NCBI GenBank assembly: GCA_022818765.1
Contig: CP063810.1
Coordinates: 62,001 to 126,000, forward strand
Direction: 5' to 3'
Origin: Bordetella sp.
GTDB lineage: Bacteria > Pseudomonadota > Gammaproteobacteria > Burkholderiales > Burkholderiaceae_B
DNA: 64,000 bases
Below, in pieces: positions 393-63,693 of this stretch. Both the position numbers and the translations under genes were made by a program. The notes beneath the pieces were generated by a model that did no database searches, was not told the DNA's origin, and worked only from the letters and a program-made list of their open reading frames with translations. How positions within the stretch are numbered: the stretch's first letter is position 1; each line of letters begins with the position of its first letter.

Positions 393-1810
393 TTAATCCT
401 TAATAACTTTACCTGGATTTAATATCCTAAAAGGATCAAGAGCCTTTTTTATGCGTCTCATAATATCTATTTCTACATTATTTTTATAAATTTGTAATTC
501 ATCTACTTTTAGCTGACCTACGCCATGTTCCGCACAAATGGAACCCCAAAATCGTTTACATTATCATGAACTATTCTATAGATTTTTTTTTGTTGGTTAA
601 GTAATTCTTCTTCTTTTTGTTCTGGAGCTTTTGCTACATTGTAATGTAAATTACCATCACCTACATGACCAAAAATAATATGTTTTACATATGGGAAATT
701 ATTTTGAATAATAGAATTGGTCTTGCTAATAAAATTAGCAATTCCTGAAATTGGAATAGCTATATCATGTTTAATAGATTTACCTAACTCAGATTCAGCT
801 AAAGGAATACTATCTCTCAAATTCCAAAAACTCTTACTTTGAGATTTATTACTAGAAATAATAGCTGTTATTATTAAGTTTTTCTCAATGCTATCTTCTA
901 ATAATTTTTCAAATAAATTTTTCAAATAATCTTCTTTTTCATGATTAGATAATTCTATCAAAATAAACCATTGAGATTTTTGGATGATTTGTTTATCAAA
1001 GGGCAAAGGCATTTGAGGAAATACAAGCCTAACAAATTGTATACAATTAGAGTTCATCAATTCAAACGCATTAATCATATATGAGAATTTAGATCTTACA
1101 CGGAAAAAGAATTCAATAGAATCTTCTATAGAATTTAATGCTATCATCGCTGTATATGTAAATGGAGTTCGTGAATATAATTTCAAAGTAGCCGCAGTAA
1201 AAATTCCTAAAGTTCCTTCACTGCCTATGTAAAGATTCCTTAAATCATAACCTGAATTATCTTTGTGAAGGTTCCTTAAACCATCTAAAATTTTACCTTG
1301 AGCTGTTACAACTTCTATACCAAGAGTAAGATTACGCATGTTTCCATAACGAATTACTTGAGTACCTCCTGCATTTGTTGCTAAATTCCCCCCTATTGTG
1401 CATGATCCTTCAGATCCTAAACTTAATGGAAATAAGCGATCTGATGCATTAGCAATATCCTGAACAGAACGTAGAATACATCCTGCTTCAACTGTAATTG
1501 AATTATTCTTTGTATCAATATTCCTTATTTTATTTAAATACATTGTTGAAACAATTATCGAATTACCCGAAGTATCAGGGATACTTCCACCACATAAACT
1601 TGTGTTTCCACCTTGAGGCACTATTGATATGTTATTTTGAATGCATAATTCAACAATTTTAGCAATTTTTGTAGATGTATTAGGTAAAACCACTGCTATA
1701 GCATTGCCTTGATAACGTTTTCGCCAATCTTGCAAAAATGGCTGCATATTATTCCCTGTTAAAACATGATCATAGCCTAAAATATTATTTAAATTAGAAA
1801 TGAAATCCAT
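393..1810 (-). pseudogene. FAD-linked oxidase (GlcD / D-2-hydroxyacid dehydrogenase family), one -1 frameshift
   Basis: This family oxidises D-2-hydroxyacids such as D-lactate, glycolate or D-2-hydroxyglutarate with FAD. The N-terminal FAD-binding fold shows QGGNTSLCGGS near residue 67 and GSEGSCTIGGNLATNAGG near residue 132. The C-terminal domain has FGHVGDGNLHYN near residue 382. From 1810 the frame is open down to a stop at 518, but the natural C-terminus (AEHGVGQL, then NPGKVIKD and a stop at 393) lies in another frame. The break is a run of four C (544-547, GGGG in the coding sense) where five would restore glycine-glycine. Rejoined, it gives about 472 residues, normal for the family. 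Substrate cannot be told from sequence. It could be an assembly error or an early pseudogene. Confidence 0.8.
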
Positions 1811-1930
1811 AAAATTAAGCTCAAAAAAACTGTTATAACAAATATAATTTTAAAAAATAATTTCTCAAATTAAATTAAGCATATATTCTAATATTAACTA
1901 GGGAAAAATTAATTAATGCATTCAGTAACG

Positions 1931-1966
1931 TTTGAAAATAAGAGAAAACATTCTCTTATTTTCAAA
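1931..1966. repeat. Perfect 16-bp inverted repeat, 4-base loop
   Basis: Arms 1931-1946 and 1951-1966 are exactly complementary around the loop AACA. The hairpin lies between the FAD oxidase start and the decayed hexomutase start, with no gene ending into it on either side. It may be an orphaned terminator or a transcribed structure upstream of the remnant. A second hairpin follows 15 bases later. Confidence 0.7.
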
Positions 1967-1981
1967 AAACTTTTCATGTAC

Positions 1982-2012
1982 TTTATACAAAATATAAAAA
2001 ATTTTGTATAAA
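1982..2012. repeat. Perfect 12-bp inverted repeat, 7-base loop
   Basis: Arms 1982-1993 and 2001-2012 are exactly complementary, with ATAAAAA between them. The right arm ends one base before the ATG of the hexomutase remnant, so the start codon sits at the foot of the stem. No Shine-Dalgarno sequence is visible there. Confidence 0.6.
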
Positions 2013-2013
2013 A

Positions 2014-2895
2014 ATGTTTTCTTTTTCAAAATCAGTATTTGAAGCATATGATATCAGAGGAATTTTTCCAGAATCTATTAATGAAAATTTTTCTTACTAT
2101 ACTTGGTCATGTTTTATCAAGAAAAGCAAAAGATCAAAATATATCAAATATTGTCATTGGTAGAGATGGCCGAACAAGTATTCAGACGCTTTTAGAATCT
2201 CTAAAGCAAGGATTAATTCATGGAGGAAGTAACGCAATAGATATTGGTCAAGTTCCAACACCATTAGTTTATTATGCATAGCATAATAATCATTTAAATT
2301 CATGCGTTTCTGTTACTGCTAGTCATAATTCATGTGAATTTAACATGATAATAGCAGGAAAACCATGAATGAGAATATGCTGCAATATAAAAATATATTT
2401 TCTTCAATAAAAAAACATAACGGAAAAAGTTGTATACTGAAAATTGAAGAGGACTATATCAATGATATTATATCAGAAATTAAACTATCTCGTCCTATAA
2501 AGATTGCGGTAATGGAATTGTAAGAAATATAGCAAAGAAGTTTTTTTAATGCATTAGTATGCGAAGTGTCCGAATTGTTCTGTGATGTAAATGGAAATTT
2601 ACCAAATCATGACCCATATCTAAGCAATCCAGAAAACTTGATTCATTTAATTAAATTTTTATTAAAAAATGATTTTGAAATTGGATTAGCCTTTGATAGT
2701 GATGGTGATAGATTAAATGTTATAACAAAATCGGGCAGGATAATATTTTCGGATCAATTCATAATTATATTTTCCAAAGAAATATTAAAGTCTTATCCAG
2801 GATCTTCTATAGTTTATAATGTGAAATGTAGTTCAAAATTAGACCTTCAAATACAACTTCATCTCTTAAATTTCGATCTGAAGCAGGTAATTTAA
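2014..2895 (+). pseudogene. Phosphomannomutase/phosphoglucomutase (AlgC/ManB-like) remnant, multiple lesions
   Basis: The intact enzyme isomerises hexose-1- and hexose-6-phosphates for envelope sugars. Here only pieces remain. The start reads into FEAYDIRGIFP, the typical N-terminus. Then come the GRDGRTS motif, an active-site loop VTASHNS and a metal-binding FDSDGDRL in successive frames. The lesions I can see are a frameshift near 2097, an in-frame TAG at 2279-2281, a further frameshift after about 2365, disruption around 2510-2560, and loss of everything after about 2895, so the C-terminal sugar- and phosphate-binding domains are gone. Unlike the other broken genes here, no single base repair restores it. 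This is genuine decay. Confidence 0.85.
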
Positions 2896-3049
2896 TCTTA
2901 TTGAATAAGATACAAAATAGCTTTAAAAAAGAATTAATCAAAATTAGTCCAAAAATCAACTTGACTTTTTAAAAAAGTCTGTAATTTATCCTGAACGTTT
3001 TGATTTTATTTTATATCTATGTTATATAAAACTAATATCTTTTAAAACA

Positions 3050-3619
3050 ATGAAATTTACATTAAGTTTATTATTCATTCTTTTTTTAAGTTCTTGTTCT
3101 ATTCTAATGTCTAATTGTGAAAAAACTCACAATTTTAAAAAGGATTTTTCAAGAACTGGTCGATTTGTGTTAAAGATTGTGAATAAACTTGAAAGCAAGG
3201 AAACCGTTACACAAGGTAAATTTTTATGGTTAGATAAAAAAGGATATTTTTCATTAGATTTAAGTAATTTTCTTGGTTTAACAATTATTCGAATAAAATG
3301 TATAGAAAATGCAAATTCAGGATCTATTAAGTTGGAATCTATTGTTCCATTCTCGGAATCAGTCAATTATATTTCAGAATATCTAACTCAAAATCCAGTT
3401 CCTATGATCGCTATAAAAAATTGGGTAAAAAACAATATCGAAATTTCAAATAATCTTTTAAATTCAAAATCTGATTCTATTCAATATTTTTTACCGGATG
3501 CATCGAAAAATAAATGGAGTATATCTTCATTTACTAGAAATAATATAAATTCTTTATATATAGAAAATTCTGATAATAATATAGCTTTCTCTTTAAAAAT
3601 CATCCTAGATAATCAATAA
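3050..3619 (+). CDS. lolB: Outer-membrane lipoprotein LolB
   Basis: LolB receives lipoproteins from periplasmic LolA and inserts them in the outer membrane. The 189-residue product starts with a lipoprotein signal peptide ending in the lipobox LSSC, so Cys16 is the lipidation site. The following RTGRFVLKI segment and the WLDKKGYFSLDLSN stretch are in keeping with the LolA/LolB beta-barrel fold. Overall similarity is diffuse, as is usual for LolB. The position directly before ispE is the standard betaproteobacterial arrangement and supports the name. The presence of Lnt elsewhere in the window is consistent with an active lipoprotein pathway. Confidence 0.8.
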   Translation: MKFTLSLLFILFLSSCSILMSNCEKTHNFKKDFSRTGRFVLKIVNKLESKETVTQGKFLWLDKKGYFSLDLSNFLGLTIIRIKCIENANSGSIKLESIVPFSESVNYISEYLTQNPVPMIAIKNWVKNNIEISNNLLNSKSDSIQYFLPDASKNKWSISSFTRNNINSLYIENSDNNIAFSLKIILDNQ

Positions 3620-3675
3620 AAAAATTTTATGATATATTGAAACAATTAAATTTATCACCAATGTATCTCATGATA

Positions 3676-15608: not shown

Positions 15609-16396
15609 ATGTATCATCATGAAATACAACAATGTTTTAGTCAAAATTTTTTAATTGATAAAGATTTTATTAATTTGATTCTGTATACTATTTTACCTAA
15701 AAAGAAGATTTATTTTTAGAAATAGGGCCTGGATTAGCTGCGTTAACAGATCCTATGCTTAGGCAAGTTCAACATTTACATGCAATTGAAATTGATCGAA
15801 ATTTAGTTTCTATTTTGCGAAAACGATATTCGATAAAAAAGCTAACAATTTTAGAAGCTGATGCTTTAACTGTTGATTTTTCAAAATTTGGAAAATCAAT
15901 ACGAATTATTGGTAACCTACCTTATCATATTTCCAGTCCTTTGATATTTCATCTTGTTAAATTCATTAAAAATATAAGGGATCAACATTTTATGTTGCAA
16001 CGGGATTTTGTCGATAGAATGGTAGCAAAACATTCAAGTAGTAAATATGGTCGATTATCTGTAATATTACAATCTCAATATAAAATAAAAAAAATATTTG
16101 ATGTACCTCCGGAAGCATTTAATCCAAAACCTAGAGTATTTTCTGCTTTAGTGAAAATGGTTCCATTATCTGATTCTGATTGTTATTCCAAACCAATAAA
16201 TTTTACAGTGTTTGAGAATCTTGTTGCTAAAGCATTTTCAAAACGTAGAAAGATGCTTCGAAATACATTAAAAGATTGGTTGATCCATATTCCTTGGGAG
16301 AAGTTAGAAATATTACCTACTGATCGAGCTCAAGATATTTCCGTCAAAAAATTTATTACTTTGTCAAATATGCTTTTAGATAAAGGAATTGTTTAG
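15609..16396 (+). pseudogene. rsmA: 16S rRNA dimethyladenosine transferase RsmA (KsgA), one -1 frameshift
   Basis: RsmA dimethylates two adenines near the 3' end of 16S rRNA. The ATG at 15609 opens a frame with CFSQNFLIDKDFI that stops at TAG after about 36 codons. The SAM-binding motif LEIGPGLAALTDP and the rest of the enzyme, including the catalytic GNLPYHISSPL, follow in another frame to 16396. The break falls in a run of five A (15699-15703); six would make one 263-codon frame of normal size. Nothing else in the gene is damaged. It may be a sequence error, or the downstream part might be made from an internal start, but that would lack the first SAM motif. Confidence 0.88.
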
Positions 16397-19512: not shown

Positions 19513-19567
19513 TTAAATTCAATTTCAAATTCTATAAATATTTTATAGAATTTGAAATTGAATTTAA
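19513..19567 (-). terminator. 26-bp perfect hairpin at the end of fdhD
   Basis: Arms 19513-19538 and 19542-19567 are fully complementary with a three-base loop. The stop codon of fdhD (19564-19566, minus strand) lies inside the right arm. Only a loosely T-rich stretch follows in the fdhD direction. A terminator or mRNA 3'-end stabiliser is likely. The arm length is exceptional for this window. Confidence 0.7.
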
Positions 19568-20397
19568 AAGCAAATCCGTTCTGGATGTGTATAAATAGAA
19601 GCATTATCTTGCCGAATAAAACCTAATAATCCAATACTTGCTCTCTCTGCTAAACTAACAGCTCTAGCAGTAGGAGCTGATATTGCAGCAAGAATTCCAC
19701 AACCACTGGATATGGTCTTTTGAACCATTTCAAAACTAGCTCTACTTGAAATGAGAATCATTCCTGTATCTGCTTGAAATCCATGGTTTATTAACCCTCC
19801 TATTAATTTATCTAAAGCATTATGTCGTCCTACATCTTCACGCACAAGACATAATTGACCTTCTGAATTAGCCCACCCCGCTGCATGGGTAGCTCCTGTT
19901 GTCTTATAAAGAACTTGGTATTTTCTCATGTTTTTCATTGCTTCTAATATAGCTGCTATCGAAACAACTTTACATGAACTTACTGTTTCAATTGGTGACG
20001 TAATAATTTCTTTTAAAGCATCAATTCCACATAATCCACAACCAGTATTACCTAACATGAATCGACGTCGTTTTCTTAATTTCACTGCACTTGCTGTTGA
20101 AATCTCAAGTTGAATTACAATTCCTTGAGGTTGTTCTTGAAATTCAACATTGCGTATTTCATGTATATTTTTAATAATACCTTCAGTCAAAGAAAAACCT
20201 ACAGCAAAATCTTTAAGATAATTTGGTGAAGCTAACATAGTCACATGATTTATTCCATTATATTCTAATGCAATAGGAGTTTCTTGCGCGACCCAGTCAC
20301 ATTCAGTTTCATTATTTAATTTTCCTGAATGTATTCGATGAATTGAAATATTCATACAATCACTTTTATATAACGCAGTTTGTTTATTTTTATTCAT
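19564..20397 (-). CDS. fdhD: Formate dehydrogenase accessory sulfurtransferase FdhD
   Basis: FdhD moves sulfur from a cysteine desulfurase to the molybdenum cofactor before insertion into formate dehydrogenase. The 277-residue protein carries the sulfur-carrier cysteines in NTGCGLCG (Cys120 and Cys123), the EDVGRHNALDKLIG motif near residue 191 and an SSRASFEMVQK stretch. An in-frame ATG at residue 15 is an alternative start. It heads the Moco island and implies a formate dehydrogenase-like molybdoenzyme elsewhere in the genome, since none lies in the window. Confidence 0.95.
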   Translation of the reverse strand: MNKNKQTALYKSDCMNISIHRIHSGKLNNETECDWVAQETPIALEYNGINHVTMLASPNYLKDFAVGFSLTEGIIKNIHEIRNVEFQEQPQGIVIQLEISTASAVKLRKRRRFMLGNTGCGLCGIDALKEIITSPIETVSSCKVVSIAAILEAMKNMRKYQVLYKTTGATHAAGWANSEGQLCLVREDVGRHNALDKLIGGLINHGFQADTGMILISSRASFEMVQKTISSGCGILAAISAPTARAVSLAERASIGLLGFIRQDNASIYTHPERICF

Positions 20398-20500
20398 AAT
20401 TTTATTGAGAAAATTTAAAGAAATTTTTATTAAAAATTGAAAAACAATTAATCAGAAAAGTAACATTATGTACTTAAAAAATATTTGGAAATAATAAATC

Positions 20501-21619
20501 ATGAATCAATCAATATTTCCTATTAATTTTCCACATTCAAAAAAATTATCTAAATATAAAAGATTAAATGTATCTGTTTTGGATCATTCTGTACTCGATA
20601 AAAAATCTCGTCCTTTAAATTATCTTCGAATTTCAGTTTTAGATCAGTGCAACTTTCGATGCCCTCATTGTATGCCAGATGAAATTTTTCATAAAAATTA
20701 TATTTTCATGAAAAATGAAAATTTATTATCATTTAATGAAATTGCTAGAATAGTAAGAATTTTTTCAAAATTAGGGGTTCAAAAAATTCGGTTAACAGGT
20801 GGAGAACCTTTGCTTAGAAAAAATATTCAAGAATTAATAAAAGTTTTAACTTGTATTCGCACTCCATCTGGAAAACCTCTAGATATAGGTTTAACTACAA
20901 ATGGAAGCTTGTTAGCTCAAAAGGCATTTATTTTAAAAAAGGCAGGTCTCAGAAATATTACTGTTAGCCTTGATGCTCTTGATCCAAAAATTTTCTCTAA
21001 AATGATTGGAAAACAAAAAATAACTCCTCAAACTATTCTGAATGGAATAGAAATCGCTAAAAAAGCAGGTTTAATGCCCATTAAAATAAATATGGTTGTT
21101 CGTCACAGCATTAATAAAACAGAGATTCTTTCAATGGTTAAAAAATTTCGACATACTGGAAATATTCTTCGTTTTATTGAATATATGGATGTTGGAAATA
21201 CTAATAATTGGGATTTAAATGAAGTCATACCTACTCAAGAAATAATCAATTTTATCGAAAAAAAATATCCTTTAATTGCTTTAAATGATTCAAATATGGG
21301 AAGAGTTGCAAAACGTTGGAAATATAAAGATGGTGGTGGAGAAATTGGTTTTATTTCTAGTATCACAGATGCTTTTTGCAGTGGTTGTACACGTGCTCGT
21401 TTATCTCCAGATGGAAAACTATTTACATGTCTTTTTTCATCTAAAGGGTATGATCTTCGTTCAGATCTAAGAAATCAAAATCTTTCAGATGAAGATTTAG
21501 CTAACATATGGAGCAAAATCTGGAAATTGCGTCAGGATAATTACTCTGAGAAAAGAAATGTAATTAGAAATTTTTCTAATCCTGATCAAAAAATTGAAAT
21601 GAGTTATATTGGGGGTTGA
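20501..21619 (+). CDS. moaA: GTP 3',8-cyclase (molybdopterin synthesis) MoaA
   Basis: MoaA is a radical-SAM enzyme that with MoaC turns GTP into cyclic pyranopterin phosphate. The N-terminal 4Fe-4S cluster motif CNFRCPHC has Cys50, Cys54 and Cys57. LTGGEPLLRKN near residue 98 is the SAM motif. The C-terminal cluster cysteines appear in AFCSGCTRARL and FTCLFS, and the protein ends in the functionally important Gly-Gly. A 40-residue leader precedes the core, as in many betaproteobacterial forms. It is divergent from fdhD and followed by mobA. Confidence 0.96.
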   Translation: MNQSIFPINFPHSKKLSKYKRLNVSVLDHSVLDKKSRPLNYLRISVLDQCNFRCPHCMPDEIFHKNYIFMKNENLLSFNEIARIVRIFSKLGVQKIRLTGGEPLLRKNIQELIKVLTCIRTPSGKPLDIGLTTNGSLLAQKAFILKKAGLRNITVSLDALDPKIFSKMIGKQKITPQTILNGIEIAKKAGLMPIKINMVVRHSINKTEILSMVKKFRHTGNILRFIEYMDVGNTNNWDLNEVIPTQEIINFIEKKYPLIALNDSNMGRVAKRWKYKDGGGEIGFISSITDAFCSGCTRARLSPDGKLFTCLFSSKGYDLRSDLRNQNLSDEDLANIWSKIWKLRQDNYSEKRNVIRNFSNPDQKIEMSYIGG

Positions 21620-21651
21620 TAAACAACAATTTATTAGTAACCTACTTATTA

Positions 21652-22278
21652 ATGAAAATAGCTGGTTTAATACTCGCTGGAGGTTCCAGCATCAGGATGG
21701 GAGGCATTGACAAAGGTCTACTATTATTGGATGGTAAACCTTTAGTTGAACATGTTTTTAACCAGATAAATTTACATATTTCAAAGCTTTTCATTAGTGC
21801 AAATCGAAATTCAGAAAAATATTCTATATATGGATCAGTTCTACATGACAATAAGAACTTGGGATCTTTTTTGGGTCCTTTAGGAGGGATTGCTGCAGCT
21901 ATGTCTGTATGGACAGGACAACTACTAGTCATAATGCCTTGTGATTCTCCATTTTTTTATAGCTGTCTTATAAAACGTTTGATTTTAACTGCAGAAAAAG
22001 AAAATGCATCTTTAGTAGTTGCAAGTTGCAATAAAAAACGTCAACCTGTTTTTATGGTAGCAAATATAAAACTTCTATCAAATTTAGAAACTTATTTAAT
22101 TAGAAAAAACCGGAAAGTTCGATTGTGGCAAGATATGGTTGGAGTAAGAGAAGTAGATTGTTCGGATTTTCCAACAGCTTTTTTAAATATAAATACTTTT
22201 AATGATTTCAATCAAAGTAAAGCAATTATAAGGTCCAATGTTGTAAATCATAGTAATCTACCAAATCGTGATCATTAA
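21652..22278 (+). CDS. mobA: Molybdenum cofactor guanylyltransferase MobA
   Basis: MobA adds GMP to Mo-molybdopterin, producing the dinucleotide cofactor used by DMSO-reductase-type enzymes such as formate dehydrogenase and nitrate reductase. The nucleotide-binding LILAGGSSIRMGGIDKGLL is at the N-terminus, and MPCDSPFF near residue 100 holds the metal-site aspartate. I placed the start at 21652 because it gives MKIAGLILAGG; a TTG further upstream at 21616 would overlap moaA. The last 53 bases overlap the end of moeA on the other strand. Confidence 0.93.
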   Translation: MKIAGLILAGGSSIRMGGIDKGLLLLDGKPLVEHVFNQINLHISKLFISANRNSEKYSIYGSVLHDNKNLGSFLGPLGGIAAAMSVWTGQLLVIMPCDSPFFYSCLIKRLILTAEKENASLVVASCNKKRQPVFMVANIKLLSNLETYLIRKNRKVRLWQDMVGVREVDCSDFPTAFLNINTFNDFNQSKAIIRSNVVNHSNLPNRDH

Positions 22279-23431
22279 TTTTAGTATTAGCAGGCAAGCG
22301 AGCAAAGCCATTAGCCCATGCAATAGAACTTATAAAAGACGAATCTTGTTTAGGATAACAAATCAATTCCGAAAATCCATTGGAAATTACACGTTTAACT
22401 CTAAGAAAATTTTCTCTAGAATCTATAAATTCTTTATGAATGCGTAATGGAAGTTTGATAATAGGAGGAAATAAATTGTTCCGTCCTTGCATTCCTCGGA
22501 TTAGTAAGGTCCCAATTGTAATAAATGTTACATAAGCAGAAACTGGATTTCCTGGTAAGCATAATACTGGCGTATTTTTTACATTTATTAATGCTATAGG
22601 TTTTCCTGGTTTCATTTTTATTTTCCAAAATTCTATTTTTCCTCCTAATGATTGAAGAACTTTTTTTATAAGATCTTTTTCTCCAACAGAAATTCCCCCA
22701 ACACTAATGATTACATCACAATTGATCAATAATTTTTTAAAAGCTTGAGATAAATCATCTTCATTATCGGAGGTATGTAATACATCAATTACATTTGAAC
22801 CAATCATTTTAGACAAAGCTTCTAACATAGGACTATTTGAATTATAAATTTCTTGCTCAAGACATTTTTGTCCTGGATTAATTAATTCATTACCACTTGT
22901 CAAAATTCCAACTTTGAGGCTTTTATAAACAGAAACATTAGAAATGCCTTGTGAAGCAAGAAATGCTATATCAGAAGCATTTAATTTAGTTCCTATTTTC
23001 GAAATAATACTTCCTTTTTTGATATCTTCTCCTTGTCTTCTTATATTCTCACCAAATTTAGTTGGCTGAATTATGTTGATCCAATTATTTTCTTGATATA
23101 CATTTTCTTGAATAACTATGGTATCAGCTCCATCAGGAAGTAAACTACCTGTAAAGAGTTTAATTGCATACCCAGGAAGAAGATTTCCTATTGTATCACC
23201 TGCATAACAAGATTTTTGAATAGGAATTTTTTCATTGAATAAATCAATATGACGAATCGCATATCCATCCATAGCACTGTTATCTTTCAACGGAAAGTCC
23301 ATCATTGCATTTAAATCAGATGCTAAAATTTTGCCTAATGATTTATTCAATGAAATTTTTTCAATAGGTGGTTTAGGTAACGAAATTACCATTTTCGCAA
23401 TAAAGTCTTGGGCTTGTTCAAACTCTAACAT
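22226..23431 (-). CDS. moeA: Molybdopterin molybdenumtransferase MoeA
   Basis: MoeA inserts molybdate into adenylylated molybdopterin. The 401-residue protein shows DFPLKDNSAMDGYAIR near residue 42, the GEDIKKGSIISKIGTKL region, the MoCF-fold motif ISVGGISVGEKDLIKK and the PGKPIALINVKNTPVLCLPG loop. It is the last gene of the minus-strand moaC-moaD-moaE-moaB-moeA cluster and lies 9 bases after moaB. Its 3' end overlaps mobA by 53 bases in convergent fashion. Confidence 0.95.
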   Translation of the reverse strand: MLEFEQAQDFIAKMVISLPKPPIEKISLNKSLGKILASDLNAMMDFPLKDNSAMDGYAIRHIDLFNEKIPIQKSCYAGDTIGNLLPGYAIKLFTGSLLPDGADTIVIQENVYQENNWINIIQPTKFGENIRRQGEDIKKGSIISKIGTKLNASDIAFLASQGISNVSVYKSLKVGILTSGNELINPGQKCLEQEIYNSNSPMLEALSKMIGSNVIDVLHTSDNEDDLSQAFKKLLINCDVIISVGGISVGEKDLIKKVLQSLGGKIEFWKIKMKPGKPIALINVKNTPVLCLPGNPVSAYVTFITIGTLLIRGMQGRNNLFPPIIKLPLRIHKEFIDSRENFLRVKRVISNGFSELICYPKQDSSFISSIAWANGFARLPANTKINDHDLVDYYDLQHWTL

Positions 23432-23440
23432 AAATTGAAT

Positions 23441-23980
23441 TTAATCTTTGTTTTTAAATCGATATGAAAAATTACAAGGTAAGTAACTACTATCAAGTTG
23501 TTCACATAACAACTTAGACCAAGCAGTATGACAAGCATTGCTTGAGCTAGGTAAACAAAATATCAAAGTATTGTTAGCATAACCTGCAAAAGCTCTTGAT
23601 TGAACTGTAGAACTTCCAATTTCTTTATAGGAAATTTGTCGAAATAATTCTCCGAATCCTTCTATTATCTCATCCAATAATGGTAGAACTGACTGATATG
23701 TATCATCGTTGAAATGATAACCTGTCCCACCTATAGTTAATATAACTTGAATTGTCGAATCTGCAATCCAATTGCTCAATATACGGCGAATTTGATATTT
23801 ATTGCTTTTAATCAGACATCGATATATACATTTATGACCAGCTTCTATCAAATTATTTTCTAATAAATTCCCTGAAGTATCCTCATTTGAGGAGTGATCA
23901 TTGATAGTAAGTATTGAACAGGAAAGAGATATAAATTCTGAATGCACTATAAAGAGGTCCTTATGAAGTATATTTTTCAT
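23441..23980 (-). CDS. moaB: Molybdenum cofactor protein MoaB (MogA/MoaB family)
   Basis: The protein of 179 residues has the MoCF-binding fold with the molybdopterin-binding TIGGTGYHFNDDT motif near residue 92 and a PSSSNACHTAWSKLL stretch near the end. MoaB/Mog proteins adenylylate molybdopterin. The E. coli MoaB appears dispensable, and a separate mog gene lies at 42.8 kb, so its exact job is uncertain. The sequence is more diverged than its neighbours (NDHSSNEDTSG in place of a tighter SDR motif). The start overlaps the end of moaE by 20 bases. Confidence 0.85.
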   Translation of the reverse strand: MKNILHKDLFIVHSEFISLSCSILTINDHSSNEDTSGNLLENNLIEAGHKCIYRCLIKSNKYQIRRILSNWIADSTIQVILTIGGTGYHFNDDTYQSVLPLLDEIIEGFGELFRQISYKEIGSSTVQSRAFAGYANNTLIFCLPSSSNACHTAWSKLLCEQLDSSYLPCNFSYRFKNKD

Positions 23981-24428
23981 TCCAAAGTTGACGTTTTGTA
24001 TAATCTTTACTGGTTGGACTTACCCAGAATTTACTTCCCTCTGCTAGGGTTTCGCATTTCCAAATTGGAATACATGTTTTAATCATATCCAATATATATT
24101 CGCAGCTCAAGAATGCTTCTTTTCGATGAATACTAGCAGTAGATACAAAAACGATTCTATTTCCAGGATATAAAATTCCAACTCTATGAACAATCACTAC
24201 ATCTAATAATTTCCAATTTTGATAAGCATTATTAACAATAATATTCAGTTCACGTTCACACATATTTGGATAATGTTCAAGGAATAACTTTTGAATTTCA
24301 GCATCATTTCTATAGTCTCGAACATACCCTGTAAATGATACAATTGCACCTGCTTTTTCTCCTACTTTTTTTTTCAAATTCTCTTGTAGTAAGTTAGGAT
24401 TAAAGTCCTCTTCTTGAATAGAAATCAC
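23961..24428 (-). CDS. moaE: Molybdopterin synthase catalytic subunit MoaE
   Basis: MoaE, with the sulfur carrier MoaD, converts cPMP to molybdopterin. The 155-residue product has AGAIVSFTGYVRDYRND, the HRVGILYPGNRIVFV segment and the catalytic lysine region IWKCETLAEGSKFW. I set the start at the GTG at 24428, reading VISIQEEDFNP, because a GGAGGG lies about 8 bases upstream and the core begins there. Longer forms would run through moaD. It is four bases behind moaD. Confidence 0.93.
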   Translation of the reverse strand: MISIQEEDFNPNLLQENLKKKVGEKAGAIVSFTGYVRDYRNDAEIQKLFLEHYPNMCERELNIIVNNAYQNWKLLDVVIVHRVGILYPGNRIVFVSTASIHRKEAFLSCEYILDMIKTCIPIWKCETLAEGSKFWVSPTSKDYTKRQLWNEKYTS

Positions 24429-24432
24429 ATTT

Positions 24433-24690
24433 CTACCCTCCTGTAACAGGTTCAAAAATAGCAACTTCATCACCATTTTGAATACAAACAGATTTATTCG
24501 CATATATCTGATTAACAGCTAAATATAATCTGGGAATGGAATTTAATTGTGGGTAAAATTGACGTAAAATTTTCAAAAGATCATTCCCTGTAATCAAGTT
24601 TTCTATTGGCCAAGATTCAGATCGTTTGCCTGTCAACTCAGCAATTCTTGCAAAATATAAAATATTAACTCTCGCAAGACCAATTACCAC
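24433..24690 (-). CDS. moaD: Molybdopterin synthase sulfur carrier subunit MoaD
   Basis: This ubiquitin-like protein of 85 residues carries a thiocarboxylate on its C-terminal glycine. The chain ends PVTGG, and NILYFARIAELTGK and GDEVAIFEPVTGG fit the family. The start at 24690 overlaps the end of moaC by 26 bases and gives a short leader of about seven residues. It is directly followed by moaE, its partner. Confidence 0.94.
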   Translation of the reverse strand: MVIGLARVNILYFARIAELTGKRSESWPIENLITGNDLLKILRQFYPQLNSIPRLYLAVNQIYANKSVCIQNGDEVAIFEPVTGG

Positions 24691-25156
24691 TTTTTCCTCC
24701 TATTTTTTTAATTAGTCGGATATCTTCTATAATTATTGCTTTATCTTCTGATTTGCACATATCATATATTGTCAATGCAGCTATGCTGCATGCCATCATA
24801 GCCTCCATTTCAACTCCTGTTTTATAATTTGTCTCGCATTGGGATATAACTTCTATACTGTGCATTTCATTATTTAATTGAAATTTAATATCAATAAAAT
24901 TAATAGGTAGACTGTGACAAAGCGGGATTAAATCTGAGCAGCGTTTAGCTGCTTGGATAGCAGCTATGCGAGCAGTATTCAATACCTCTCCTTTATTATT
25001 CTTTTCAGGATGAGTTAATAATTCATAAGCTTCGGAACTCATATTTATTCGGCTTTTAGCTACTGCAATACGGTGCGTAGCATCCTTTGATGTAATATTA
25101 ACGATCTGAACTTGACCATCTTGATTAAGATGACTAAATTTCTTTGGTAGAAACAT
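24665..25156 (-). CDS. moaC: Cyclic pyranopterin monophosphate synthase MoaC
   Basis: MoaC completes the first step of Moco synthesis after MoaA. The 163-residue protein includes KGEVLNTARIAAIQAAKR, the LIPLCHSLPI active-site stretch, TGVEMEAMMACSIAALTIYD and the KSGNW end region. It is the first gene of the minus-strand cluster moaC-moaD-moaE-moaB-moeA, in which neighbours overlap or nearly touch, so a single transcript is likely. Confidence 0.96.
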   Translation of the reverse strand: MFLPKKFSHLNQDGQVQIVNITSKDATHRIAVAKSRINMSSEAYELLTHPEKNNKGEVLNTARIAAIQAAKRCSDLIPLCHSLPINFIDIKFQLNNEMHSIEVISQCETNYKTGVEMEAMMACSIAALTIYDMCKSEDKAIIIEDIRLIKKIGGKSGNWSCES

Positions 25157-33853: not shown

Positions 33854-34991
<1,138 letters not shown>

Positions 34992-36231: not shown

Positions 36232-37778
36232 CTAAATATCAAGTGCATGCCATATACTGTCTATTCGTTTTTTAACTGAAATATCCATTTCAATTCGAGA
36301 TCCCCAAATTCTATTAGTTTCATTAGACCATTTATTTGTAGCGTCCATGCCCAATTTGCTGCCTAATCCTGAAGTTGGAGAAGCAAAATCTAAATAGTCA
36401 ATTGGTGTATTTTCTATTAGAACAATATCTCTAGAAGGATCCATCCTAGTTGTCATTGCCCATATTACTTCTTTCCAATCTCTTGGATCGATATCATCAT
36501 CGACCACAATAATAAATTTTGTATACATAAATTGTCGCAAAATGCTCCATATACCAAACATGATTCTCTTTGCATGTCCTGGATATTGTTTTTTGATTGA
36601 GACTGTTGCTAGTCGGTAACTACACCCTTCGGGTGGAAGATAAAAATCAACTATTTCAGGTAATGTTTTCTGGAGTAAAGGAATAAATACTTCATTTAAT
36701 GATAAACCTAAGATTGATGGTTCATCTGGGGGTTTTCCAGTGTAAGTCGAATGATATATGGTATTTGAACGCATTGTAATTCGATCAACTGTAAAAACAG
36801 GGAACCATTCTTTTTCATTATAATATCCAGTATGATCACCATAAGGACCTTCTAAAGCCATCTCGTAATTTATTTTTAAAGATTCTTGAAGTTTAGGAGA
36901 ACAATCTGTATTGAGAGTAATAGCTTTCGAATCTGAAATTGGAAGTATATTACCTTCAAGAATTATCTCTGCATAAGCAGGTACTAATAAAGAATTTCCA
37001 ATAGATTTTACCAATTCCGTTCTAGATCCTCGCAATAAACTGCAAATTGGTATTCAGATAAATTATCTGGAATTGGAGTAACAGCACTAAGTGTAGTTGC
37101 TGGATCTACTCCTAAAGCAACAGAAATTGGAAAAGGTTGATTAGGGTATGCTTGAATATGTTTTTGAAAATCTAATGCTCCCCCGATGTGGTAGCCATCG
37201 CATAATAAGTTTATTTTATCTATTGGTTGCTGTCGATAAATTCCTAAATTTTGACGAATTTTATCTGGAGATTTTGTAATTACTAAACCCCAACTAAGTA
37301 AAGGTCCTACATCTTTCGGCCAACAAGTTTGAAGAGGTAATTTAGATAAATCTACTTTTTCGTTCTCTAATACAAATTCCTGACAAACTCCTTTTCGCAA
37401 GATTTTAGGTCGCATATCCCAGAGTGCTAGTTTTAAGCTAGATATTGTTTCAAAAATATCTGAAATATTTTGTGGAGGTTCAGGTTCTTTTAGTAAAGCT
37501 AAAAGCTTACCAGTTTCTCTTAAATCTTTTATACTTTCGCCACCCATTCCAAATGCTACTCTTTTTGAGGTGCCAAAAAGATTTGTTAACACAGGGATTT
37601 CAGAAACTTTACCATTGTGTATCACTTTTTCAAATAATAAAGCCGGTCCACCTGAGCGTAAAACCCGATCTGAAATTTCAGTTAATTCTAAGTAAGAAGA
37701 AACAGGAAATTTAATGCGCTTGAGTTCTTTTTTATCTTCAAGTTGAGTAATAAAATCTCTTAAATCCCGATATTTCAC
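36232..37778 (-). pseudogene. ubiD: 3-octaprenyl-4-hydroxybenzoate decarboxylase UbiD, one -1 frameshift
   Basis: UbiD decarboxylates the polyprenyl-hydroxybenzoate intermediate of ubiquinone using prenylated FMN made by UbiX. The N-terminal half runs from 37778 through SEYQFA and then shifts. One extra G at 37040 (minus strand GG instead of G) would give [14 protein letters not shown] and join it to the second half, making a 516-codon gene. The second half keeps [11 protein letters not shown] and [15 protein letters not shown]. No other damage is seen. It may be an assembly error; as it stands no full-length protein is encoded. Confidence 0.9.
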
Positions 37779-38415: not shown

Positions 38416-40468
38416 ATGGAAAAACAAAACATCCACAACACTATTGCAGATACTATTCGTATTCTTACTATGGACGCTGTGGAAAAAGCTAATTCTGGAC
38501 ATCCTGGAGCTCCTATGGGTATGGCAGAAATTGCGACAGCTCTTTGGATGAAAAATTTGCGTCACAATCCAGCTGATCCTAAATGGATAGATCGTGATCG
38601 ATTTGTTTTATCAAATGGCCATAGTTCAATGTTGCTTTATGCGTTATTACATCTAACTGGCTATGACCTTTCGATATCCCAGTTAAAAAACTTTCGGCAA
38701 TTAGGTTCATTGACTCCAGGTCATCCAGAATTTGGGCTCACCCCAGGTATAGAAGCCACTACAGGCCCATTAGGGCAAGGATTGGGTAATGCTGTAGGAA
38801 TGGCTCTATCCGAATCCTTGTTGTCATCAGAATTTAATAGACCTGGATATGATATTGTAAATCATTTTACATATGTATTTGTTGGTGATGGTTGTCTCAT
38901 GGAAGGCATATCGCATGAAGTGTGTTCATTAGCAGGTACTTTAAAATTATCTAAATTGATAGTTTTATATGATAGTAATGGAATTTCTATTGATGGAAAT
39001 GTTAAGTTTTGGTTTAATGATGATACATCAAAACGTTTTGAGGCTTATGGATGGAATGTAATTGATAAAATCGATGGACATAATATTACAGAAATTGATT
39101 TAGCTATTAAAAAAGCTAAATATCAATCTGATAAACCTACTATTATTATTTGTCAAACAGTTATTGGAAAAGGTTCGCCGAATAAAGCTGGTACTGCTGA
39201 TATACACGGATCACCGTTAGGATTAGAAGAAACAAGACTTGCCAAGAAATATTTAAACTGGACAAATGATCCTTTTGTTATACCAGAATCTACATATAAA
39301 ATGTGTAATTCAATTGAATTTGGCAATTCCATTCAAACTACATGGGAAAAACAATTCCATTCTTATTCTCTTGTGTATCCTAAACTTGCCAAAGAATTTA
39401 AGCGTCGAATTAAAGGTCATTTACCAACTAATTTTTCTGATTTTTTTCAAAATTTATTAAAAGTCACAACAAAAAAAAATGAAGATCTATCAACTAGAAA
39501 AGCCTCACAATTTGTCATTACCAGTTTAGAAAAGATTTTACCAGAACTTCTTGGTGGATCAGCTGATTTAACTCGATCAAATTTGACAGATTGGAAAGGG
39601 GTTGAAATAGTTAATAAAAATGATAAAGGCACAATTTCTGGAAGGTATATTAACTATGGAGTTCGTGAATTTGGTATGGCAGCTATCATGAATGGAATTG
39701 CATTGCATGGAGGTTATCTGCCTTTTTCTGGAACGTTTTTAACTTTTTCTGACTATTCGCGTAATGCTATTCGCATGTCAGCTTTGATGAAGCAAAGAGT
39801 TATTTACGTGTTTACTCACGATTCTATTGGTCTTGGTGAAGATGGCCCTACGCATCAACCTATAGAACAAATTGCTAGTTTACGTTTGATACCTAACTTA
39901 TCAGTATGGCGTCCATGTGACATTGTTGAAACTGTAACAGCCTGGTGTGTTGGTATACAACGTCCAATAAATATGGAAATAAACCAGAAAATTTGGGAGG
40001 ACCAACTGCTATTTTGCTATCAAGACAAAACTTACCATTTATAGATCGGGATAATCAAACATTACAGTCTGCAAAACGCGGTGGTTATATATTAAAGGAT
40101 ATGCAAGATGCAAAAATCGTGATCTTAGCTACTGGTTCAGAAGTTTCTATTGCGTTAAATGCTCAAGAAAAATTGATTAATGAGGGGATTCCAGTTAGGG
40201 TAGTTTCAATGCCTTGTGTTGATATTTTTGAGAAACAAGATATCGATTGGAAAGATTTTGTTCTGCCAAAGGACATGTTCAAAATTGCCATTGAAGCAGG
40301 TTCGATAGATTTTTGTATAAATATGTAGGTTTAGAAGGCGCTATTATTGGTATTGATAATCGTTATGGGGAATCAGCTCCAGCCGATGTATTATTTGATT
40401 ATTTCCAGATCACTGCCAATAAATTAATTAAAACTGTAAAAAATTTTATAAATAGGAAAAAGTTATGA
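38416..40468 (+). pseudogene. tktA: Transketolase, two -1 frameshifts
   Basis: Transketolase moves two-carbon units between sugar phosphates using thiamine diphosphate. The cofactor motif [18 protein letters not shown] is intact near residue 155, as is the pyrimidine-domain segment [16 protein letters not shown]. The frame breaks near 39966 (AA where AAA gives QRPNKYG) and again at 40315 (one G where two give FWYKYVGLEG). Two added bases make one 685-codon gene of normal length. Its restored stop overlaps the gapA ATG (ATGA), which suggests the frame was functional until very recently or still is. Confidence 0.9.
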
Positions 40469-42811: not shown

Positions 42812-43425
42812 ATGAAGCATATGATTTCTAAAACAGAATATTTTCATGAGGATTCCAGTTTATTAATTGGTTTAGTCTCGATATCGGATCGAGCATATTC
42901 TGGTCAATATGAAGACCGGGGTTACCTACATTGCGAAATTGGTTAGATCAAGCAATATTATCATCCAAAAAATATTATGAATTTTTGATTCCTGATGAGA
43001 TTGAGCTTATAGCTAAATGTTTAGTGGATTTATCAGATAATTATGCCTGCGATCTAATTTTTACAATAGGTGGAACCGGTCCAACTAATAGAGATGTAAC
43101 ACCTGAAGCTACACTATCGATAGCAAGCAAAGAATTGCCAGGTATTGCTGAACAAATGCGTCAAATAAGTTTGAAAGCTACACCTACAGCTGTTCTTTCT
43201 CGTCAGGTTTCGGTTATACGGCAAAACGATAAACATTCAGCTCTAATTATAAATTTACCAGGACAGCCTAGAGCTGTACAAGAGATATTAGAAGGAGTCA
43301 AAGATTTTAAGGGAAATACTATTATTTCAGGAATTTTTTCAGCTATTCCATACTGTCTTGATTTGATAGGAGGACCTTATATTGAAACTAATCCGAAAAT
43401 CATTAAAAGTTTTCGTCCAAAATAA
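42812..43425 (+). pseudogene. mog: Molybdopterin adenylyltransferase (Mog), one -1 frameshift
   Basis: Mog adenylylates molybdopterin ahead of MoeA. The start reads LLIGLVSISDRAYSGQYED and then leaves frame at a run of four G (42918-42921). Five would give EDRGLPTLRNWL and a 205-codon gene. The second part keeps the binding motif TIGGTGPTNRDVTPEAT and the NLPGQPRAVQEILEG stretch. It is closer to classic Mog than MoaB at 23.4 kb is. If the break is real, MoaB would be the only candidate for this step in the window. Confidence 0.88.
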
Positions 43426-43458: not shown

Positions 43459-44101
43459 TTAAATTTTTCTGAATAAGAATTTATTTTCAAATTCGCATAA
43501 ACTAAAAATTTTGCAAAGATCACATCTTGGTTTATTAGCTTTGCATATATAACGACCTAGCAGAACTAGCCAATGATGAGCGTTATAAGCATATTCAGAT
43601 GGAACTCTTTTCAACAAATTTTTTTCTACTTCTTGTACAGTTTTCCCTTTAGCAATTTTTGTTCGATTTGAAACTCGGAAAACATGAGTATCAACTGCCA
43701 TAGTTTTTTGACCAAATATAATATTTAATATTACATTTGCACTCTTTCTTCCTATTCCTGGAAGGTTTCCAATTCGTATCGTGTTTCTGGAATATTTCCG
43801 TCATGTTTTTGCAATATAATTTCACAAATTTTATTATATTACTAGCCTTTGTTCTATAAAGACCTATGGTTTTAATATATTTAATTAAATGATCTTCACC
43901 TAAATCCAATAAGGTTTCTGGTGTTCCATAATTTATAAAAAGTTTTCTTGTAACAATATTAACAATTTTATCCTTTGATTGAGCTGATAGTAAAACAGCA
44001 ATTAATAATTGAAAAGGAGTTTGATATTCTAAATCAGATTTAGGATTGGGATTTTCTTCTCTTAAAATAAAAAATATTTTTTTTCTTTTATATAGATTCA
44101 T
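43459..44101 (-). pseudogene. nth: Endonuclease III, two -1 frameshifts
   Basis: Nth removes oxidised pyrimidines from DNA. The N-terminal part (YQTPFQLLIAVLLSAQSKD) is followed by two frame changes. One is at 43826-43828 (three T in the sense strand where four read KFCEIILQ). The other is near 43762-43765, just before the helix-hairpin-helix PGIGRKSANVI. The third frame has the catalytic aspartate in AVDTHVFRVSNR and the iron-sulfur cysteines CDLCKIFSLC. Two added bases give a 215-codon gene of standard size. It is convergent with mog. Confidence 0.87.
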
Positions 44102-47355: not shown

Positions 47356-48230
47356 ATGAGCTGGATTCGAAAGCTTCTACCCCACGGATTAATAAATCTA
47401 ACGATAACGGCATTAGACGCATACCTGAAGGTCTTTGGATGAAATGTCCTTCATGTGATGCTGTGTTATATACAAAAGATTTATCAATTAATTTATATGT
47501 TTGCCCTAAATGTAACCAACATATGCGAATTAGTGCAAGAAACCGAATTAATTTTTTATTGGATAAGGAAGAACGAAACGAGATAGGGTTAAATATCAGA
47601 CCGGTAGATGGATTAAAATTCAAAGATACTAAAAAATATACTGAAAGGATTCAGGAAGCAATGAAAAAGACTGGAGAAACCGATGCGTTAATTGTTATAC
47701 AAGGATCGATTCATAGCATTCCCGTTGTTTTAGCTTGTTTTGAATTTGATTTCATGGGAGGCTCTATGGGATCTGTAGTAGGCGAGCGATTTGTTCGTGG
47801 AATTCAAGCAGCCATTGATAAAAAAATACCATTTATATGTGTTAATTCCTCTGGAGGAGCTCGCATGCAAGAAAGTCTTTTTTCTTTAATGCAAATGGCT
47901 AAAACAAATGCTATGCTGAACCTTTTATCTTTAGCTCAATTACCGTTTATTAGTGTGTTATCAGATCCAACCATGGGAGGTGTTTCAGCAAGTTTTGCTT
48001 TTATGGGAGACATTGTTATTGCTGAACCAAATGCTCTCATTGGTTTTGCTGGTCCGCGAGTTATTGAACAGACTGTTCGTGAAAAATTGCCAGAAGGTTT
48101 TCAGAGATCAGAATTTTTGTTGCAAAAAGGAGCTATTGATATGGTAATTGATCGTCGGCAATTAAAAGAATCAATAGCTCGTTTATTAGCTATTTTAATG
48201 AATCAACCTAGTGACACTTTAGTAATTTAA
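47356..48230 (+). pseudogene. accD: Acetyl-CoA carboxylase carboxyltransferase beta subunit, one -1 frameshift
   Basis: AccD with AccA transfers CO2 from biotin to acetyl-CoA. From the ATG at 47356 the sequence reads MSWIRKLLP and then meets a run of four C (47380-47383). Five would give [20 protein letters not shown] and join the rest as a 292-codon gene. The zinc-ribbon cysteines (CPSCDAVLY and CPKCNQHM) and the [10 protein letters not shown] active-site segment are intact. This gene is essential wherever fatty acids are made, and the fab operon is kept, so a sequence error is likely. A later ATG at 47439 would lose the N-terminus but keep the zinc ribbon. Confidence 0.9.
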
Positions 48231-52477: not shown

Positions 52478-53067
52478 TTAAAAGATTGGATTAAATCCGA
52501 GACATCGTAACATTCTTGCAACACTAATAAGAGGTAAACCAATAATTGCTGTTGGATCTTGACTTTTAATGCTTTCAAACAAAGTTATTCCTAAACTTTC
52601 TACTTTAACACTACCTGCAGTATCATAAGGCTTTTCTAAATCAAGATATGATACAATTTCTCTATCAGTTAAATCCCTCAATTTACAGTTTGTAGTGATA
52701 TTTTTTCTTTTAATTTTTTTTCCATTAGCGATTGTAACAGCGGTGTGAAAAATAATATATTTTCCTGATAAAGTTTTTAACTGTTCTTTAGCATGAAAAA
52801 AATTTTTGGGTTTTCCTATGATTTCCTTGCTAATTCGAGCAATCTGATCTGATCCAATTACTATTGTTTCTGGGTATTTTTTTGAAACAAATAGAGCTTT
52901 TTCAGAGGCTAGACGCATAGCATATTGTTTCGGATTTTCTCCAATATTAGGTGATTCATCTATATTTGGATAAACTACTTTGAAAGGTATTTTAATCGTT
53001 CTAGCAAGTGACGACGATATATCGAACTAGAAGCTAAAATAAGTTTTTTATTTCTATGTAAGGTCAT
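52478..53067 (-). pseudogene. maf: Maf-like nucleoside triphosphate pyrophosphatase, one -1 frameshift
   Basis: Maf proteins hydrolyse non-standard or methylated nucleoside triphosphates. The start reads LILASSSIYRRHLLERL, the family N-terminus, then shifts at a run of four T (52990-52993, AAAA in the sense strand). Five would read LKIPFKVVYPNIDESP and yield a 197-codon gene. The later part keeps IGSDQIARI and the KPYDTAGSVKVES segment. This family is often dispensable, so a real loss is possible, but the lesion type matches the others in the window. Confidence 0.87.
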
Positions 53068-58036: not shown

Positions 58037-59274
58037 GTGAAGCGACGTGTGGCTATTACGGGATTGGGAATTATTTCCCCAGTTGGAAATGATTTAAATA
58101 CTGCTTGGATTAATATAATTAATGGTCAGTCTGGTATAAACCGAATCACTCGATTTGATTCTTCAGTATTAATACTCATATAGCTGGTGAGGTTAAGAAT
58201 TTTAATGTTTATGATTATGTGTCTGTTAAAGAAGCTCGTCAGATGGATAATTTTATCCATTATGGTATAGCTGCAGGTAAACAAGCATGGAATGATTGTG
58301 GACATGAAATTACTGAAGAAAATGCTACACGAGTTGGCATTATTATCGGTTCAGGAATAGGAGGTCTTTCTCGCATAGAACAAACACAGATTGAGGTTCA
58401 ATCTAAAGGGATTCATCGAATTTCACCTTTTTTTGTACCGAGTTCTTTAATAAATTTAATTTCTGGGCGTTTGTCAATTGCTCTTGGTGTGAAAGGCCCT
58501 ACCTATGCGGTAGTGTCTGCATGTGCAACTGGTCTTGATTCTATAGGTAATGCGACTCGTTTAATAGAATATGGGGATGCTGATGTAATGTTAGCTGGTG
58601 GTTCTGAATCTGCAGTTTCTCCATTAGGAGTTGGTGGGTTTGCTGCGATGAAGGCTTTATCTACTCGCAATGAAGATCCTGAAACAGCTTCTCGTCCTTG
58701 GGATCGAGATCGTGATGGTTTTGTTTTGGGTGAAGGTGCAGGAGTATTAGTTTTGGAAGAATTAGAACATGCGAAAAAACGCGGAGCTCGGATTTATGGA
58801 GAAATCATTGGTTATGGTATGAGCTCTGATTCGAATCATATTACTGCTCCTGATAAAGATGGTCCTTATCGAAGTATTTTTAATGCTCTTCGTAATGCAA
58901 ATATAAATCCAAGTGACATTGATTATGTTAATGCACATGGAACATCAACTGTGCTTGGAGATAAAAATGAAACAGAATCAATTAAATTGGCATTTAAAGA
59001 TCATGCATATAAATTAGTAATAAATTCTACTAAATCAATGACAGGTCATTTATTGGGAGCTTCTGGAGGTATTGAAGCTGTATTCACAGCTTTAGCAATT
59101 TACAATCAAATTTCTCCTCCAACTATTAATATTTTTAATCAAGATCCTGAATGTGATCTTGATTATTGTGCAAATGAAGCAAGATCAATGAAAATTCAAA
59201 TAGGTATTTCAAATTCTTTTGGTTTTGGTGGTACAAATGGATCAATTATTATGCGACGTGCAAATAACATCTAA
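58037..59274 (+). pseudogene. fabF: Beta-ketoacyl-ACP synthase II, one -1 frameshift
   Basis: FabF elongates acyl-ACP chains. A strong AAGGAGG lies just ahead of the GTG start at 58037, and the sequence reads [19 protein letters not shown]. It leaves frame near 58169 (two T where three would give [12 protein letters not shown]) and continues in another frame with Cys in SACATG and histidines in NAHGTST and TGHLLGAS. One added base makes a 413-codon gene of normal size. With the rest of the fab operon intact and no second fabF in view, a sequence error is the likely reason. Confidence 0.9.
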
Positions 59275-61007: not shown

Positions 61008-61052
61008 TTTTTTCACAAATCAAAATATTTATTTTTTATAAATTTGACTCCT

Positions 61053-62849
61053 ATGGACCATATAAGAAACTTTTCAATCATAGCACATATTGATCATGGT
61101 AAATCAACACTTGCTGATTGTTTGATACAGAAATGTGGAGGGTTAACCGATCGTGAAATGTCAGAGCAGGTTCTTGATTCTATGATAATAGAACGCGAAA
61201 GAGGTATTACTATTAAATCTCAAACTGCTGCTTTAAAATATTTTTATCAAAATGATAAGCAGTACTATAATTTAAATTTAATTGATACCCCAGGTCACGT
61301 GGATTTTTCATATGAAGTAAGTCGTTCATTGTCTGCATGTGAAGGAGCATTGTTAATAGTTGATGCTTCACAGGGTGTTGAAGCTCAAACTGTTGCTAAT
61401 TGTTATACTGCTATTGAATTAGGCATAGAAATTTTACCGGTCTTAAATAAGATAGATTTGCCTCAAGCTAATACCAAAAATTGTCTTAAAGAAATTGAAG
61501 ATATTATTGGGATTAATACTAACGATGCATTGCTAGTAAGTGCAAAAACCGGTTTAGGAATTGATAAATTATTAAACCATATTATACTAAAAATACCTTC
61601 TCCAAAAGGTAATATAGAAAAACCATTGCAAGCTTTGATTATTGATTCTTGGTTTGACAACTACGCTGGTGTAGTAATGTTGATAAGAGTTGTGAATGGA
61701 ATTGTCAAACCTAAAGATAATTTATTATTTATGGCTACTGGTTTCACTCATGCATGTGAACAAGTAGGTATTTTTACACCTAAAGCTGAAAATCGACAAA
61801 GTTTATCAAGTGGTCAAGTTGGGTTCATAGTTGCTGGAATTAAGGATTTAAAATTCGCAAAAGTTGGAGATACTATAACCTTAGTTAAAAACATTGCCTT
61901 AAAAGCATTATCAGGATTTAAAGAAACAAAACCACAAGTGTTTGCAGGTTTATATTCAATTGATAATAAAGAATGTAATCGATTGCGTGATTCATTAGAA
62001 AAACTTAAATTAAATGATGGGGCTCTAGTTTTTGAACCGGAATCCTCAGAAGCGCTTGGTTTTGGATTCCGTTGTGGTTTTTTAGGTCTGCTACATATGG
62101 AAATTGTCCAGGAACGTTTAGAGCGTGAATTTAATATAGATGTTATTATTACTTCTCCATCAGTTACTTATGAAATTGAAAAACAAAATGGAATTATTGA
62201 AATAATTCACAACCCTTCTTACATGCCAAAACCTAATGAAATTTTAGATATTAGGGAACCCATAACTAAAATGATCATATTTCTTCCACAAAAATATATA
62301 GGATCAGTTATGGAGTTATGTACTAAGAAACGAGGAATCCAGATTGACATGAATTATCATGGTAAGAATGTGAATATAACATATGAAATCCCTTTAGCAG
62401 AAATTTTATTAAATTTTTTTGATCGTCTTAAATCTGTTTCTAAAGGATATGCTTCTATGGATTATAAATTTATAGAATACAGATCTGCAAACGTTATTAA
62501 AGTTGATTTTCTTCTTAACGACAATAGAATAGATGCCTTGTCAATTATAATTCATCGATCTAATGCTCGTCAAAGAGCTATTTTCTTATTATCTCGTATT
62601 TGTAAAATAATACCTCGACAAATGTATGATGTAAAAGTTCAAGCAATGATTGGAAATGAAGTAATTGCTAGGGAAAATATAAAATCATTGCGAAAAAATG
62701 TTTTAGCTAAATGCTATGGTGGTGATATTACTAGAAAGAAAAAATTATTGGAGAAACAAAAAGCAGGAAAAAAACGAATGAAACAATTGGGTGGAGTTGA
62801 AATTCCAAAAGAAGCATTTTCCGCAATTCTTCAAATTGAAGATCAATAA
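61053..62849 (+). CDS. lepA: Elongation factor 4 (LepA)
   Basis: LepA is a ribosomal GTPase that acts on stalled or mispositioned ribosomes and affects initiation. The 598-residue protein has the G1 motif [14 protein letters not shown], the effector region [31 protein letters not shown], and the LepA-specific C-terminal domain ([35 protein letters not shown]). I chose the ATG at 61053 ([14 protein letters not shown]). A TTG three codons earlier is possible. Confidence 0.96.
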
Positions 62850-62875
62850 TTATAATAATTTAAGGAAATAAATTA

Positions 62876-63693
62876 ATGAGTTGGGACTTTAATTTTATTT
62901 TATGTATTTGCACAATTCTCTTAGGCTTTACTTGGATTTTTCATCGATTAATAATCGTCAAACTTAATATATCTTTAAATGCAAATTTTTTAAGTAGAAT
63001 ATTAAATTCTCCATGGCTTGAATATTTAGCAAATACATTTCCAATTTTATTATCTGTATTTATCTTTCGTTCATTTATAATTGAACCATTTCGAATTCCT
63101 TCTGGTTCTATGTTACCTACTTTACAATCTGGTGATTTTATCCTTGTTAATAAATTTATTTATGGAATAAGAAATCCTATTAATGATAAACAAATTTTTC
63201 ATACAAAACAGATTAATAGAGGTGATGTAATAGTATTTCGTTACCCTGTTAACCCACATGTTAATTATGTAAAGCGAGTAATTGGTTTACCTGGAGAAGA
63301 AATAATTTATAAAACAAATAAACAATTATTTGTTAATAATATTTTAATTTCTAATGATTTCAAGGGAATGTACTATGAAAAAGATAGAGAATCATTCATT
63401 ACAAAATATCTGGAGAAATTAGAAAATATTAAGCATGAAATTTTATTAGATAAAAATAATGAATCTAAGATATATCCAATTTATCAATTCCCCAGCATAG
63501 AAAATTGTCATTACTCTCATGAAAGTTTATATTGCAAAATACCAAAGAATCATTATTTTACTATGGGAGATAATCGTGATAATAGTTCTGATAGTCGATA
63601 TTGGGGTTTGTTCCTGATGAAAATATAGTTGGAAAAGCTTTTTTTATATGGATGAATTTTAAAAATATTAATCGGATAGGTTTATTATATTGA
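62876..63693 (+). pseudogene. lepB: Signal peptidase I, one -1 frameshift near the end
   Basis: LepB removes signal peptides at the outer face of the inner membrane. The membrane anchors come first. The catalytic Ser78 lies in IPSGSMLPTL and Lys133 in NYVKRVIGLPG; the GDNRDNSSDSRYWG box is intact. Right after it three T (63607-63609) replace the four that would read GFVPDENIVGKAFFIWMNF, and the chain ends eleven codons early in frame terms, with 23 restored residues lost. One added base makes a 273-codon gene ending two bases before rnc. The truncated form still holds both catalytic residues, so partial function is conceivable. Confidence 0.9.

Follow-up and report, generated by a model that had tools for sequence, protein, structure and literature searches.

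Why should a stretch of a small bacterial genome carry gene after gene that lacks exactly one base, and do such breaks record genes that the organism has lost or faults in the published sequence? The stretch analyzed here (the window, 64 kb) comprises bases 62,001-126,000 of a genome that is assembled as one contig (866,396 bases, 30% G+C). The genome is reduced, AT-rich, and symbiont-like, and is the sole representative of its genus among the genomes compared; in a search with RNase E, the nearest contig outside it was from Alcaligenaceae. When 269 genomes of the family were searched for another member of the lineage whose copies are intact, none came closer than about 74% DNA identity over the fabF region. 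As a reference we used the nearest small genome, that of a related symbiont (G007; 820,037 bases; hereafter the reference genome). Its proteins, together with those of up to 13 further relatives, were the queries for a frame-aware protein-to-DNA aligner written for this analysis. Breaks were counted modulo three, so that −1 denotes a class and not an absolute size, and each position is given as an interval of a few codons. Gene names within the window follow an earlier reading and the translations, and those outside it follow NCBIfam matches on the orthologues in the reference genome.

The initial annotation of the window had listed thirteen single-base losses and no gains. Alignment to the proteins of relatives recovered all thirteen at the named genes, each of class −1, and the split genes, once read through, come close to full reference length without an in-frame stop (for the FAD oxidase, residues 1-465 of 467 in the reference protein are covered). 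The breaks are listed below in window coordinates, together with one further pair in ubiD.

540..556, minus strand: FAD oxidase, class −1 break near 547, beside a run of four G (90% interval, alignment to the G007 protein)
15699..15709, plus strand: rsmA, class −1 break near 15705, beside a run of five A
34706..34719, minus strand: tgt, class −1 break near 34716, beside a run of four G; five references concur
37036..37043, minus strand: ubiD, class −1 break near 37040, in a run of three; 12 references concur
37176..37217, minus strand: ubiD, additional pair, about −1 near 37217 and −2 near 37185 in a G run; 12 of 12 references
39973..39998, plus strand: tktA, first break, class −1, near 39994
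40302..40315, plus strand: tktA, second break, class −1, near 40311, beside a run of five T
42911..42921 (approximate), plus strand: mog, class −1 break near 42917, near a run of four G; seven relatives concur
43827..43834, minus strand: nth, first break, class −1, near 43828, in a run of four A
43762..43769, minus strand: nth, second break, class −1, near 43766, in a run of three
47370..47390 (approximate), plus strand: accD, class −1 break near 47380 and codon 9, near a run of four C
52988..52995, minus strand: maf, class −1 break near 52992, in a run of four A
58160..58179, plus strand: fabF, class −1 break near 58166; the longest run in the interval is of two bases
63602..63612, plus strand: lepB, class −1 break near 63605, beside a run of four G

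For the accD break, 11 references give −1 and two give +2, which is the same class. The count of thirteen proved too low: the additional ubiD pair (−1 at 37217 and −2 at 37185) brings the window to at least 15 loss events. The pair jointly restores the reading frame and was absent from the earlier list; it cancels its own frameshift and was therefore missed by plain reading of open reading frames. Silent, frame-cancelling pairs of this kind may occur at other sites in the genome. A possible pair in secD (33116-33133) was left uncounted, as it spans just four residues in a divergent stretch. Counted by the same method throughout, the window holds about 12 breaks in 64 kb; this equals the genome average of about one per 5 kb of aligned coding sequence, and the breaks are therefore no local feature.

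An apparently intact cluster of fdhD and molybdenum-cofactor genes (moaA, mobA, moeA, and others, with names taken from the translations) lies at window 19564-25156; the nearby mog gene has no match in the reference genome. The cluster fits a formate dehydrogenase gene found at genome positions 140369-141817, which contains an in-frame TGA at the usual place of selenocysteine and whose Pfam match ends near another probable frame break. With a tRNA-Sec gene at genome positions 132989-133087, the TGA gives signs, read from sequence, that selenoprotein synthesis is kept in this 866-kb genome.

In a shrinking symbiont genome, ordinary pseudogene decay is one conceivable source of split genes, and the window holds what does look like a true pseudogene as an internal contrast. 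The hexomutase remnant near 2 kb (window 2020-2860) has frameshifts of mixed sign, an in-frame stop, a missing C-terminal part, and only about 44% identity, and thus differs from the thirteen just as had been claimed. Decay is expected to leave indels of both signs, stops, and a bias toward dispensable genes. Mixed signs, stops, and missing parts are what the hexomutase and the few pseudogenes of the reference genome display, whereas the thirteen are single losses only, with no stops and with identity unchanged past the break. The broken genes share with the pseudogenes of reduced symbionts a disrupted frame and a small genome, but they differ in having one sign, no stops, no bias toward dispensable genes, and conservation that is kept downstream. 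We consider decay an exceedingly improbable source of the breaks.

The same pattern extends over the whole chromosome. When the proteins of the reference genome were aligned to the complete sequence (195,252 aligned amino acids), 99 of the 613 genes showed a total of 123 supported breaks, of which 108 belong to class −1, 8 are most readily taken as losses of two bases, and at most 7 are gain-like. The absence of gains thus holds within the window, but not strictly beyond it. Four of the 123 breaks (555758, 863804, 863875, and 864184) fall in spurious open reading frames over rRNA; two of the gain-like cases are in such frames and two more are in an N-rich stretch (one directly at ambiguous bases), leaving about three. 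In the reverse control, in which 495 unbroken open reading frames of the source genome were aligned to the reference genome, there were 15 events, of mixed sign and clustered in few genes. The breaks are evenly distributed on the chromosome (variance/mean 0.67), their rate is flat over quintiles of conservation (0.155-0.230 losses per kb; chi-square p=0.67), and protein identity is the same before and after them (0.573 and 0.574). The genes hit include those for ribosomal proteins L2, L16, L24, S5, and S12, as well as atpA (ATP synthase alpha), atpG (gamma), gyrB, dnaE, and mutS.

The two breaks in mutS itself raise the possibility that the runs were truly shortened in the DNA by a recent, deletion-biased mutator, for example after loss of mismatch repair, under relaxed selection. 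The reduced, symbiont-like genome would suit such a history, as would the base composition of the runs affected. A mutator without mismatch repair favors G/C runs, and among well-placed cases about 3.6% of G/C runs of four or more were hit as against about 0.24% of A/T runs, a difference of about 15-fold per run. Both the G/C bias and the broken mutS therefore count among the points against an error in the record. However, a mutator should also produce substitutions and gains, yet supported in-frame stops occur in only about four genes against about 114 losses, and gains are nearly absent. It would, moreover, have had to strike without regard to conservation and to break ribosomal proteins, both 23S rRNA copies, and single-copy tRNAs in a living cell. 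We regard the mutator as very unlikely.

The breaks are associated with homopolymers, and their enrichment climbs steadily as the runs lengthen: it is 0.4-fold for a run of 1, about 2- to 7-fold over runs of 4-8, and 7.6-fold for a run of 8. The runs concerned are short: among the 86 well-placed breaks, two lie in a run of 8 and none in a longer one, and most are in runs of 3-6, many of them G. Truncation of every long homopolymer was considered and rejected, as A/T runs of 7-9 are equally common in the source and reference genomes; the error proposed here would therefore be milder than that of a raw, unpolished nanopore consensus. Breaks at coding-strand G runs outnumber those at C runs (22 versus 2). 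We rejected this asymmetry as a signal of slippage at the mRNA level, since it is mostly compositional: on the coding strand, G runs of at least four are 2.6-fold commoner than C runs and those of at least five are 4-fold commoner, the latter also in the reference genome.

If the shortened runs are real, they might be tolerated because some of the product is brought back into frame, either by slippage during transcription or by ribosomal frameshifting, a situation described from Buchnera and Blochmannia. Insect endosymbionts are known to rescue genes by slippage at poly(A) tracts, and eight genes of B. vafer carry such frameshifts (PMC5009743; PMC3017870). The present case resembles these in its AT-rich, reduced symbiont genome, in the preference of its breaks for homopolymers, and in genes that are otherwise undegraded. 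It differs in that the runs are far shorter and often of G, that ten times more genes are affected (99 of 613, as against the 8 in B. vafer), and that rRNA and tRNA are also hit. Known rescue needs A/T runs of about nine or more and would be restricted to protein-coding genes; neither a long A/T tract at the break nor such a restriction was found, the breaks lying mostly in runs of 3-6, many of them G. Losses in 23S rRNA and tRNA lie beyond the reach of frameshifting, and we consider rescue by slippage scarcely credible.

Those RNA genes provide the evidence that separates the explanations, since translational slippage or frameshifting cannot repair an rRNA or a tRNA; on this ground gene decay and decoding rescue were set aside. 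Four one-base indels separate the two copies of the rRNA operon (5.57 kb), and three fall inside 23S rRNA. At each 23S indel (near genome positions 555502, 865679, and 865827, within runs of three to six), one copy has a base fewer than both the other copy and the reference genome, and the three operons of the reference genome have zero gaps among them. One of these sites, at genome position 865827, probably falls where the peptidyl-transferase region is strongly conserved. Among 151 genomes of the family, the short form at this site occurs in one, the source genome, and the full form in 90, a count that includes the other 23S copy of the source genome.

Two tRNA genes were reported by ARAGORN with a two-base anticodon. 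Alignment to the reference genome identified them as tRNA-Arg(UCU) (genome 33560-33635) and tRNA-Leu(GAG) (263027-263111), each with a six-base anticodon loop; the counterparts in the reference genome have normal loops and the same gene order, the tRNA-Arg(UCU) gene keeping its position between tRNA-Pro and tRNA-His. No second copy of either gene exists in the source genome, and AGA by itself accounts for 2,713 codons of the aligned genes. A further tRNA, at 436322-436397, best matches the third CAU tRNA of the reference genome, is probably tRNA-Ile, and appears to lack two bases in a G run of the acceptor stem. Apparent gaps in tRNA-Lys and tRNA-Arg(CCG) were rejected, as their stems are complete and CCA is simply not encoded. 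We also considered whether a tRNA with a two-base anticodon might act as a −1 suppressor and dismissed the idea on inspection, since the breaks lie in A, G, T, and C runs and share no single doublet. A cell carrying these rRNA and tRNA lesions would not be expected to survive. The broader proposal that the short runs are real and that the symbiont tolerates about 115 one-base losses, including the six-base anticodon loops and the 23S lesions, through pervasive slippage or unusual decoding appears extremely unlikely to us.

Trouble is also visible in the consensus record itself. A block of about 1 kb in which Ns are mixed with isolated bases (genome 551904-553066) adjoins and enters one rRNA operon, and single Ns are scattered over 547052-557125, with another at 645308. 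The start of the contig (genome 1-211) is an inverted copy of 553575-553785, just beyond the other rRNA operon, so that the rRNA repeat is probably where the contig was opened. A duplicated segment of 1,454 bases (261350-262803 and 839907-841360) has one mismatch and no gap between its copies. Estimated completeness and contamination are 93.5% and 2.29%, compared with 98-99% and 0-1% in eight genomes of 0.7-0.8 Mb from the genus of the reference genome, as would be expected if marker genes were split.

On the evidence as a whole, we are highly confident that the breaks arose as errors of the published consensus, in which short homopolymers would have been under-called. At a sequencing or consensus step, numerous short homopolymers (of 2-8 bases, with G/C runs worst affected) would have come out one base short, or now and then two, at a rate near one per 5 kb over the entire chromosome and irrespective of the gene. 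The breaks are as under-calling predicts: mostly one-base deletions, more frequent with increasing run length, and blind to function, RNA genes included. A point against it, besides those that also fit a mutator, is that some breaks, that in fabF among them, have only runs of one or two bases nearby. From the sequence record we strongly infer both longer runs in the true DNA and a fault in the sequencing, basecalling, or polishing step. Under-called homopolymers had been the preferred reading of the initial annotation, and it is borne out by the genome-wide spread of the breaks, their indifference to conservation, the ribosomal proteins, the rRNA copies, the tRNA loops, and the Ns. The mutator and slippage had been ranked as less likely, and both now appear very unlikely given the losses in RNA genes, the shortness of the runs, and the scarcity of nonsense changes.

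Errors of this kind have precedents. The breaks closely fit the published long-read error profile, in which most errors are false deletions that follow homopolymers two to eight bases long, with a peak at four to five (Kastor, PMC12007338), and nanopore genomes with uncorrected errors contain an excess of false pseudogenes (Homopolish, PMC8011154). The source genome shares with long-read and flow-based assembly errors the false one-base deletions, the runs of two to eight, the splitting of intact genes, and the inflated number of pseudogenes; it differs in that G/C runs are hit far more than A/T runs and that long A/T runs are not depleted.

A test for such artefacts that requires no reads is thus available, in which duplicate rRNA operons, the lengths of tRNA anticodon loops, and the rate of breaks against conservation are compared. 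The organism most likely has its actual genes intact, and these breaks should not be taken as evidence of gene loss: the same losses hit ribosomal-protein, rRNA, and tRNA genes, which a cell cannot do without, and the finding is for this reason almost certainly an artefact of the consensus. Any account of gene loss or metabolism that relied on this record would be in error for as many as about 99 protein genes, as well as for three tRNAs and the rRNA.
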